Shown: in pieces, positions 28,231 to 61,534 of the stretch
Layout: each line of letters starts with the position of its first letter
Position numbering within the stretch: the first letter of the stretch is position 1
Origin: Candidatus Gastranaerophilales bacterium
GTDB taxonomy: Bacteria; Cyanobacteriota; Vampirovibrionia; Gastranaerophilales; Gastranaerophilaceae
Length of the DNA: 64,000 nucleotides
Direction of reading: 5' to 3'
NCBI GenBank assembly: GCA_944324345.1
Contig: CALUVT010000002.1
Coordinates: 1-64,000 of the forward strand
Notes under the pieces: model-generated
The model's input: the letters and a program-made list of their open reading frames with translations, nothing else
The model's database searches: none
Told to the model about the DNA's origin: nothing
Translations under genes and position numbers: made by a program

Positions 28231-29027
28231 ATGAAAAGATTTAAAAATGCTGGAATTTCGGGGGGGGGGCACTTTTAAGCTTTTCTAAACCCTTCCGCAG
28301 TTTACTTTTGAATGGGTTCACGCTCGCTGAAATGCTTATTACTATGGCTATTATTGGTGTTGTTTCTGCCGTTATAATGCCTGTTTTGATTAACTATTTG
28401 AGTGGCAGCTATATTCGTCAAGCTCAAGAGATGTATTCTGTTGTTACAAAAATTGTGAGAGGTGCAGAAAATAATGCAGGGCCTATTCAATCTTGGCCAG
28501 ATTACCTATGTGCTGATGAAGAATTTTTTAAAGAATACATAGAGCCTCAAATGAAATACACAATAAAGGTATCAAAACCAACAAATACTATGCCTGAATG
28601 TCCTCCTGAATTAGCACATATGTGTACAAATGGTTCTGATAGTGTTTTGGCACATTATAATTCTTCAAAAGCCCAGGTTTATCTTTTAGCTAATGGGGCA
28701 GCTCTTGGCTTTTATACAACAGGAGCAAATTCAACATTTATTGTTTTTGATGTTAATGGTGTTGAAGAACCCAACAGAACAGGTGTAGATATATATGTTA
28801 TGTCTTTGATAAATTCTGATACTGTTGAAGTTGAAGGAATAAGATTACCAATAGGGCTTAATCCTGTTGGTGTTGGTTTAGACAAAGATGATAAAATTAA
28901 GTATTGTACAAAATCACCATATATAAGTCCGTATTACAATGCATACAGTAGAATGACCTGTTTAGCATTGTTAATAGAGGATGGATTTACAGACAAAAAT
29001 TACCCTATAAAATCTTGGGGAAAATAA
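28231..29027 (+). CDS. Prepilin-like protein 1, frame interrupted by a G10 tract
   Basis: ATG 28231 (AAAGGAA upstream) reads ten codons, MKRFKNAGIS, then enters the G run and stops at TAA 28276. With one extra G (or two fewer) the frame continues ALLSFSKPFRSLLLNG into FTLAEMLITMAIIGVVSAVI, the type IV prepilin motif, giving 265 aa. The only possible start in the pilin frame before the motif is TTG 28308 without a ribosome site, so the upstream ATG is the real start. The mature part has paired cysteines and ends near NYPIKSWGK. As sequenced it should be off or need slippage. Confidence 0.8.
28260..28269 (+). repeat. G10 homopolymer in prepilin-like gene 1
   Basis: Ten G, starting within codon 10 (tcG). 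Followed by CACTTTTAAGC. Confidence 0.9.
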
Positions 29028-34636: not shown

Positions 34637-34660
34637 AGAAGAAACATGTAGGAGGCAATT

Positions 34661-35463
34661 ATGGTAATTATGAAAAGTACTAGAAACTTCGGGGGGGGGG
34701 CACTTTCAGCTTAAACTCCTTTGTTTCGGCTTGCAAAGAATGTAAAAAGTGTTATAATAGTGATATGTTATATCACAGAAGATTTGGATTTACTTTAGCA
34801 GAAGTTTTGATAACTTTAGGAATAGTTGGAGTTGTTGCGGCTTCAACTTTACCTGTTTTGATTGGTAATTACAAAAAAGCACAGACGATATCGAAGTTAA
34901 AGGTTGCTTATACTTTAATAAATGATGCATTTAAACTTGCGGTTGTAGATTACGGTGATATGAAAAATTGGGATTATGTTGAAAATTTTTCTGACGCAGA
35001 TTCTCGCAAGGCTTTTATAGATAAGTATCTAATTCCATATGTAAAAGGTGCCGAACCATCAAGTGAAAGTGCTTACAATGCAGTAGGACTTGGGTATCCG
35101 TCATCAACATCAAAATACTTCCCTCATCAACCTAATGGCAGTATTGTCGGAATGAGTTCACAAAATTATTACCCCATAGGGCTCTTAAATGGTATTTTTT
35201 ATTATGCCGGCCCTGACGGTTATGGTAATCTTGTTTTTCATGCAGATTTGAACGGTGTTAACAAACCTAATCTATACGGTTATGATTTATTTCAGTTTAT
35301 TCTTGTTCCTGATATAAATACTATTAAAATGCACACATATCAATATCGCTACATTACTGATAATGCTTATACTTACTGTAAAGATTCAAATGCATTTGGA
35401 TGTGGGCTTGTTATTGAAAAAAACAGCTGGGATATTCCGAATGACTATCCTATAAAATTTTAA
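34661..35463 (+). CDS. Prepilin-like protein 2, frame interrupted by a G10 tract
   Basis: ATG 34661 has a perfect TAGGAGG upstream and reads ten codons (MVIMKSTRNF) into the G run, then stops at TAA 34712 (GGGALSA, stop). With one more G (or two fewer) it continues GTFSLNSFVSACKECKKC into RRFGFTLAEVLITLGIVGVV, 267 aa. A second ATG at 34765 (MLYHRRFG) gives a normal short prepilin leader. It has no Shine-Dalgarno but is preceded by a leaderless-type promoter, so two routes of expression are possible. Ends in YPIKF. The stop overlaps that of lpxK. Confidence 0.85.
34691..34700 (+). repeat. G10 homopolymer in prepilin-like gene 2
   Basis: Ten G after TTC, followed by CACTTTCAGCTTAAACTC, an 18-bp string identical after the tract at 60726. 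Confidence 0.9.
34731..34758 (+). promoter_or_regulatory. Internal leaderless-type promoter in prepilin-like gene 2
   Basis: TTGCAA (34731-34736), 16-bp spacer, TATAAT (34753-34758), N6, ATG 34765. The same spacing occurs at 60766-60793. The stretch also encodes conserved residues (KKCxNxDM), so the match could be partly due to coding. Confidence 0.45.
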
Positions 35464-59671: not shown

Positions 59672-60390
59672 ATGGATGATAGACAATTAAGAACTTCGGG
59701 GGGGGGGCATTTTTAGCTTATTCTCCTGAATCAGAAGCTTTTTGTAATCGAGAAAATAACAATATTTCGTTAAAAAAAGGATTTACACTTGCAGAGGTCT
59801 TGATAACTTTAGGCGTAATTGGAGTGGTTGCTGCTTTGACAATGCCTGTTTTAATAACCGATTATCAAAAAAAGACTACTGCTAAAAAGGTTTCCAGATT
59901 TTACACGATGATGTACAACGCTATAAATGCAACCAATAGTGAGGAAGGAAATTCCTTGTGGATAGATGAATACCCGTATAAAGATGATAAAAAAAGCAAG
60001 GAGTTTTATGATAGATATTTAGATAATAAGATTGTTGCGTATAAAAAATTAGATTGGTATGGTAATTATGTTATTGGGCTTTCTGATGGATCTGCATTTA
60101 TTCCATGGTTTGGTACTTTAGGTGAAAAATATGTATTTTTTACATATTGTACTACTTTTGAGCATTGTAAGACTCATAGAGATCAAGGCTATGATGGTAT
60201 AAATGGTTTTTTGTTTATATACGATAAAACCAGAAAATTTACATCTTATTGTTCCTTGAATGATAGTAGAGATAAACTATTGAGTAGTTGTGAGGCGAAA
60301 AAAGCCAATGATCATAACAAATCTCATTGTTGCTCAGCTCTATTAATGAAAGATAATTGGGAAATTGAAAAAGATTATCCTTGGAAATAA
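59672..60390 (+). CDS. Prepilin-like protein 3, frame interrupted by a G10 tract
   Basis: ATG 59672 (AAAGGAG upstream) reads nine codons, MDDRQLRTS, through the G run and stops at TAG 59714. Adding one G (or removing two) opens the frame AFLAYSPESEAFCNRENN into KKGFTLAEVLITLGVIGVVA, 239 aa. No ATG, GTG or TTG occurs in the pilin frame between the tract and the motif; the first is a TTG inside the hydrophobic helix. The upstream ATG is therefore the only credible start. Ends CCSALLMKDNWEIEKDYPWK. Confidence 0.85.
59698..59707 (+). repeat. G10 homopolymer in prepilin-like gene 3
   Basis: Ten G, starting within codon 9 (tcG), followed by CATTTTTAGCTTATTCTCC. Confidence 0.9.
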
Positions 60391-60695: not shown

Positions 60696-61534
60696 ATGAG
60701 TATGAAAAGATTTGTTGACAGCTCCGGGGGGGGGGCACTTTCAGCTTAAACTCTAGTTTTTGGACTTGCTTAAGTAATAAAAAATGTCATAATTGTGATA
60801 TGAAGTGTCACAAAAAGTTTGGTTTTACTTTAGCGGAAGTTTTAATAACTCTTGGGATAATAGGGGTTGTTGCAGCTTTGGTTATTCCAAGTTTTGTTTC
60901 AAATTACAGGAAACATGTCATAGCTGCTCAATTGGAAAAGACTTACGCAGACTTGGAAAAATGGATTAAAGCAAGTGAAGTTGATAATGGCCCTTTTGAA
61001 AGTTGGGACTATTCAATTCCCAGTAAAGATTTTGTTCAAAAATATTTTGCGCCGTATATGGAACTCATAAGTTGTTCGTCAGCTAAGGGGGGCATATGTT
61101 TTACAGGAGAATATGGTAACATGTGGAAAAAATCAAATGGGGAGATTGAAACAGGTGGGGCTTGGTATGCCTACACTCCGCGTTATATTATGTCTGATGG
61201 GAGATATTTTGCACTTTACAATAAATATTATTATGCTGGTGTAGGTTCGTATGGTAGTGATTGGAAGTATGTTAACTTTATCATTGATGTGGATGGGCCC
61301 AGAGGAGAGAGTATTTTAGGCAAAGATGTTTATGCATTTACTTTATTTAATTATAAAAAGGGACAGATAGATCATAAAGGTTTAAAAATTGGAACTATAC
61401 ATAGCGGAGATGGTGACTATAGAGAAACCAATGAACAAATACGACGCGATTGTGTAAGTTCCGGCTATTCTTGCGGCCTGCTAATTCAACGTAACGGCTG
61501 GAAAGTCCCCAGTAATTATCCGATAAAAATATAA
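60696..61534 (+). CDS. Prepilin-like protein 4, frame interrupted by a G10 tract
   Basis: ATG 60696 (AAGGAGG upstream) reads ten codons, MSMKRFVDSS, into the G run and ends GGGALSA, stop at 60747. One more G (or two fewer) gives GTFSLNSSFWTCLSNKKC and then KKFGFTLAEVLITLGIIGVV, 279 aa. As in gene 2, a second ATG (60800, MKCHKKFG) follows a leaderless-type promoter. The two proteins share the CxxxKKCxNxDM segment, so the region is under coding constraint. Ends CGLLIQRNGWKVPSNYPIKI. Confidence 0.85.
60726..60735 (+). repeat. G10 homopolymer in prepilin-like gene 4
   Basis: Ten G after TCC, followed by CACTTTCAGCTTAAACTC, identical to the sequence after the 34691 tract. Confidence 0.9.
60766..60793 (+). 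promoter_or_regulatory. Internal leaderless-type promoter in prepilin-like gene 4
   Basis: TTGCTT (60766-60771), 16-bp spacer, CATAAT (60788-60793), N6, ATG 60800. Same spacing as 34731-34758. Confidence 0.4.

Follow-up and report, generated by a model that had tools for sequence, protein, structure and literature searches.

A G10 tract one base short of the pilin frame at the 5′ end of Gastranaerophilales prepilin genes: a probable slipped-strand contingency switch

Overview of the probable prepilin gene switch

The stretch of DNA analysed here (the window; 64,000 nucleotides, positions 1 to 64,000 of contig CALUVT010000002.1 from a Candidatus Gastranaerophilales bacterium) carries a gene that, judged by its sequence, encodes a type IV-like prepilin. 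Its 5′ end is interrupted by a run of ten guanines (G10), and an upstream ATG with its own Shine-Dalgarno (SD) sequence is joined to the pilin frame only when the run has 11 Gs. About 45 prepilin genes of the same genome (G000; 1.76 Mb in 5 contigs) are built like this target. We consider that the arrangement is probably a contingency switch operating by slipped-strand mispairing at the 5′ end of the prepilin gene and OFF by default, with 10 Gs as the OFF and 11 as the ON state. We do not rate this reading higher because a drifting tract would not be expected to keep so tight a length, and because programmed recoding is the main rival.

The switch would work as follows. At G10, translation from the SD-borne ATG at 34661 would end just past the tract. 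A +1 slip during replication would yield G11 and place the pilin in frame with the upstream ATG; the resulting 43-residue leader would then be cut off by prepilin peptidase at RRFG/F (the slash marks the cleavage site throughout). Such slippage presumably happens in vivo, and ON cells are expected to be a minority. With about 45 like genes per genome, each cell would carry a sparse and changing set of pilins. A secondary contribution may come from an internal TTGCAA-16-TATAAT-6-ATG arrangement, which at the target copy could provide small amounts of the same mature pilin whatever the tract length.

Organization of the target locus

The features of the locus are the following (window coordinates, all on the + strand):

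34650..34655, +, Shine-Dalgarno sequence AGGAGG of the upstream start, read directly, 5 nt before ATG 34661
34661..34714, +, short open reading frame (ORF) of the OFF state as read at G10, MVIMKSTRNFGGGALSA followed by a stop, direct translation
34661..35463, +, long ORF given one extra G, 43-residue leader plus pilin, frame open family-wide
34688..34712, +, conserved element TTC-G10-CACTTTCAGCTT, recurring across loci and leading-strand at 48/48 sites of the target genome
34691..34700, +, G10 tract; 11 Gs would bring the upstream ATG into frame with the pilin
34731..34758, +, internal promoter-like block TTGCAA-16-(TGT)TATAAT, conserved among paralogs
34760..34776, +, palindrome GTGATATGTTATATCAC around the second ATG, from direct reading and recurrence
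34765..35463, +, prepilin ORF from the second ATG with the 8-residue leader MLYHRRFG, predicted cleavage after 34788

The perfect AGGAGG serving ATG 34661 upstream of G10, and the TTGCAA-16-TATAAT-6-ATG arrangement at 34731-34767, both described in the original prediction, are present where it placed them. The internal block consists of TTGCAA (34731-34736), 16 nt, TATAAT (34753-34758) preceded by an extended TGT, and 6 nt leading to the ATG at 34765. The ORF that starts there has 232 amino acids and begins MLYHRRFGFTLAEVLITLG. Translation from 34661 with 11 Gs reads MVIMKSTRNFGGGGTFSLNSFVSACKECKKCYNSDMLYHRRFG/FTLAEVLITLG. The upstream promoter of the target copy is weak (9/13).

A frame relation shared across the family

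The pilin is in frame with the upstream SD-borne ATG only at a tract length of 11 (mod 3) in 183 of the 197 tract-bearing prepilin genes, which come from several genera, the upstream start codon being picked by its Shine-Dalgarno score. Against an expectation of 1/3 this gives p about 1e-69, a value that, like the others reported here, is indicative only because paralogs are not independent. An SD-borne ATG occupies the upstream position at nearly all tract loci, most of those outside the target genome having been taken from metagenome assemblies. The rule is common to G-sense and C-sense tracts, and it holds at 20/20 loci of genus G060. Of the three frames, only that of the pilin is open from the tract to the pilin, with 7 stops among 4,756 codons versus 377 and 548 in the other two; the seven stops all fall in three damaged loci, and the frame is still open in some leaders that exceed 100 residues. 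At out-of-frame loci a stop is found no more than 6 codons past the tract in 161/173 cases. As the pilin frame is open across the tract family-wide, translation from the upstream ATG through the tract appears to be under selection despite the one-base deficit of the assembled sequences. The two results (183/197 and the open frame) are those expected of a contingency gene, in which homopolymer length sets the coding frame. They also bear out the proposal that the upstream ATG is gated by the G tract, since the one extra base that the pilin frame needs at the target is needed throughout the family.

Another account would be an accidental frameshift in a decayed pilin gene, or an error in assembling the homopolymer; homopolymers are error-prone and three loci do have stops in the pilin frame. 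This account is highly improbable because about 180 loci in independent assemblies share the same state with the frame open on both sides of the tract, and as an explanation for the whole family it was rejected on the counts of frame class and stop codons given above.

As a separate observation, four loci (L113, L119, L125 and L161) have prepilin leaders of 100-200 codons that apparently include translated dispersed repeats (CHCEGVERPSQSQN, HPELVSGSQ-like) with the frame kept.

Tract orientation and replication

GC skew in 20-kb samples places the G-run of the target genome on the G-rich, leading strand at each of its 48 sites. Forty-one leading-strand genes have G-sense tracts; in 7/7 lagging-strand genes the element is inverted and the mRNA reads C10, an inversion that would arise in all seven by chance with a probability of about 1e-8. 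Ordinary runs of 3-6 Gs are split between the strands only about 54:46. In three other genomes (G014, G028 and G030) the strand of the tract is constant over long stretches, with one switch within the largest contigs, and in G014 the sampled GC skew agrees with the tract strand wherever elements were sampled. GC skew of 8-kb loci was positive in 19/29 of both classes and is too noisy to classify single loci. The inversion in lagging-strand genes ties the element to replication rather than to the sense of transcription, which favours slippage of DNA. PMC3306285, citing Gawel 2002, gives a 1.5-5-fold difference between the leading and the lagging strand for E. coli frameshifts at (G.C)6.

Tract length and the case for recoding

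Length statistics were drawn only from loci fetched without requiring exactly ten Gs (L079-L128 and L285-L304, found with an exact-G10 pattern, were excluded). In these 120 loci the tract has 10 bases in 109, 11 in 7, 9 in 3 and 13 in 1. The target with its G10 has a 92%-identical paralog (L035, C2:100994) with G11 that is in frame. Other close pairs also differ in length (L044 with G11 vs L053 with G10; L154 with G11 vs G10). In the target genome, three loci have an in-frame tract of 11 and two an in-frame tract of 10; a further C10 locus, with an acyltransferase-like gene, is in frame too.

Several points weigh against slipped-strand switching. The concentration at length 10 (109/120) is far tighter than at known phase-variable poly-G loci; colonies of Campylobacter jejuni gave G8 in 257, G9 in 214, G10 in 431, G11 in 77 and G12 in 9, that is 431/988 at G10 (PMC4965091). 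G9 or G12 would be equally OFF yet are almost never found, and MutS proteins are encoded. A requirement for tract stability could yield the same strand rule, and programmed slippage would equally be expected to show a fixed length and a fixed out-of-frame state. It should be kept in mind that assembled sequences show only the majority tract length.

The alternative is programmed recoding, in which the tract would stay at 10 in the DNA while RNA polymerase, or a ribosome shifting by -1, would add one register step at G10/C10 in some events; every copy would then be expressed at a fixed, low rate from unaltered DNA. The length of 10 and the one-base-short state fixed across several genera speak for it, as do the presence of mismatch-repair genes and the 0/20 G060 loci in frame (their tracts having been fetched by the exact-G10 pattern), and the strand rule could in that case serve to keep the tract stable. 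We nevertheless find this explanation unlikely. A tract of 11 puts at least 6 loci in frame, and some others are in frame with 10; near-identical paralogs have tracts of unequal length, and the sense RNA holds G10 or C10 depending on the gene, the orientation following replication and not transcription. Slippage of E. coli RNA polymerase during elongation, moreover, has been described for A/T runs.

A broader interpretation, which we put forward tentatively, is that the element is a dedicated, replication-oriented frame gate and not an ordinary drifting microsatellite: exactly 10 bases, on the leading strand and one base short. The pilin repertoire, genus-wide to family-wide under this interpretation, would be parked OFF and released by a tuned 10-to-11 slip or by recoding at G10/C10, and selection, a mutational attractor or some factor would hold the tract at 10.

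The proposed second start and the internal promoter-like block

Taken alone, the promoter match at the target does not exceed what chance would give (7 sites in about 1 kb vs 5.9 in shuffles). It becomes significant only through comparison of the paralogs, where the block scores as a promoter in 58 of the 118 loci that have space for it (4.1 in shuffles; fixed 16/17 spacing). The recurring block reads TTG(T/C)AA or TTGACA, 16/17 nt, (TGY)TATAAT and GTGAT-N7-ATCAC. Its 35 Ser codons are all AGT and TAC is never used, while the -35/-10 pair is retained in C-sense loci despite different amino acids there. The block thus seems to be constrained at the DNA level, a conclusion weakened somewhat by shared ancestry of the copies.

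The second ATG is less well preserved than the block. Across 81 block copies the codon is ATG in 47 and ATA in 17, it has no Shine-Dalgarno sequence, and 50/152 tract loci have no ATG, GTG or TTG at all between tract and pilin. A leaderless start at the second ATG, as had been proposed, is therefore upheld in one part, the promoter-like block with its -10 six nt before the ATG, and not in the other, as the ATG is not conserved with the promoter. A bypass independent of the tract is possible at the target copy and cannot be the general design of the family.

A dual start, with the gated first ATG giving a long form and the promoter at 34731-34758 a leaderless short form from 34765, both functional, would be compatible with the slippage switch. 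The constraint on the block and the 8-residue basic leader, a canonical prepilin leader, are consistent with it. It is rather doubtful in view of the ATA copies and of the missing ATG at loci without the block; the second ATG also lacks a Shine-Dalgarno sequence, tractless prepilins mostly use ordinary SD-ATG starts, and the mature product would be the same, hence no switch of the N-terminus.

The palindrome GTGAT-N7-ATCAC lies at the putative internal transcription start both in the window (34760-34776) and in about 60 related loci, and looks like a candidate operator. Its arms, which could also form a stem-loop around the second ATG, are nearly invariant among copies.

The mature pilin

The target ORF has a class III leader (basic n-region, G/F, Glu at +5 and a hydrophobic helix, RRFG/FTLAEVLITLG) and matches N_methyl PF07963 over the cut-off. 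Its AlphaFold2 model (predicted local distance difference test, pLDDT, 85) shows a long N-terminal helix (11-63) followed by a beta region; a Foldseek search of the model against the PDB returned no significant match to a solved pilin. The genome encodes a prepilin peptidase (PF06750, E 3.7e-36). With this peptidase and a single class III site, RRFG/FTLAE, in both forms, cleavage at the usual place would leave an identical mature pilin from either start, so that intact-protein mass would be unable to separate the long from the short form. The suggestion that the tract toggles between a long and a short N-terminus is accordingly not sustained. A tract that gates expression rather than the mature N-terminus fits the predicted processing better.

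Comparison with known systems

Tested G-tract slippage controls the sortase-dependent pilus operons bbr_0113 and bbr_1889 of Bifidobacterium breve (PMC9187656), which is the closest tested precedent. There too, in a gut commensal, a 5′ G tract (9-12) splits the pilin gene into a signal-bearing ORF and the rest, and replication slippage joins them (PMC9187656). B. breve differs in that its pilins are of the sortase type, with one or two loci in each genome and lengths of 9-12 between strains, whereas here type IV-like prepilins are found at about 45 loci with a tract almost always of 10, one base short and in an orientation tied to the replichore. The intragenic poly-G/poly-C tracts of C. jejuni resemble the present ones in that many loci per genome are set ON or OFF by the frame (PMC4965091), but they spread over G8-G12 and their in-frame length is gene-specific, both being almost invariant here. 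Programmed transcriptional slippage (Shigella mxiE, IS elements; PMC5009743) shares the conserved tract length and out-of-frame state; it concerns mainly A/T runs in single genes, unlike the G10/C10 tracts with some in-frame DNA alleles and a strand rule described here.

The data suggest pilin switching on a large scale in an uncultured gut lineage related to cyanobacteria; no report of it in Gastranaerophilales was found in the open-licence papers searched. Classic phase-variable loci do not combine a fixed length and a fixed out-of-frame state with an orientation locked to the replichore, and the combination renders DNA slippage versus programmed recoding directly testable. The loci, about 45 per genome in many species, offer natural replicates for studying the influence of replication direction and of tract length on slippage.

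Distribution of the element

The target genome has about 70 prepilin matches. Its C-G10 elements number 48, and almost every one directly precedes a prepilin. Its about 20 tractless prepilins mostly have ordinary SD-ATG starts and short leaders. In the window, runs of at least 8 Gs account for 12 overlapping matches, where 0.23 would be expected; they lie at 4 places, all of which precede prepilins. Besides the target, the members are:

28231..28269, +, upstream ATG and G10, prepilin at 28308-29027
59672..59707, +, upstream ATG and G10
60696..60735, +, upstream ATG and G10, prepilin at 60800-61534

Records matching the element sequence are named Candidatus Gastranaerophilales or Melainabacteria, together with uncultured bacteria and one labelled Fusobacterium sp. 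CAG:439. Restriction of the element to one genus was considered and rejected: it holds for AGCTT-type flanks only, and G10 tracts are found in other genera of the family, such as G060, where they gate prepilins with flanks unrelated to the AGCTT type. A scan of viral contigs gave three unrelated matches only, the single long run inspected being G8.

Tracts were also seen at other kinds of genes. At C3:52089 of the target genome (L048) an inverted C10 element stands at the start of a gene for an acyltransferase-like membrane protein and, with its 10 bases, leaves it in frame; this gene is not a prepilin, and the element is thus not restricted to prepilins. Non-prepilin genes at L166 and L175 (G012, G013) have TC-G10-CAATTC after about 24 codons, one base short. 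In a sister genus (G061, L300-L304) there are 57 exact-G10 tracts, and none of the eight sampled precedes a prepilin. An inverted element near C1:380030 of the target genome (L065) has its C run broken (CCCCCTCCCG) and is apparently a dead tract. The ends of contigs C1 and C3 (L029, L045) carry an identical T9-G9 sequence, probably an assembly break in a repeat.
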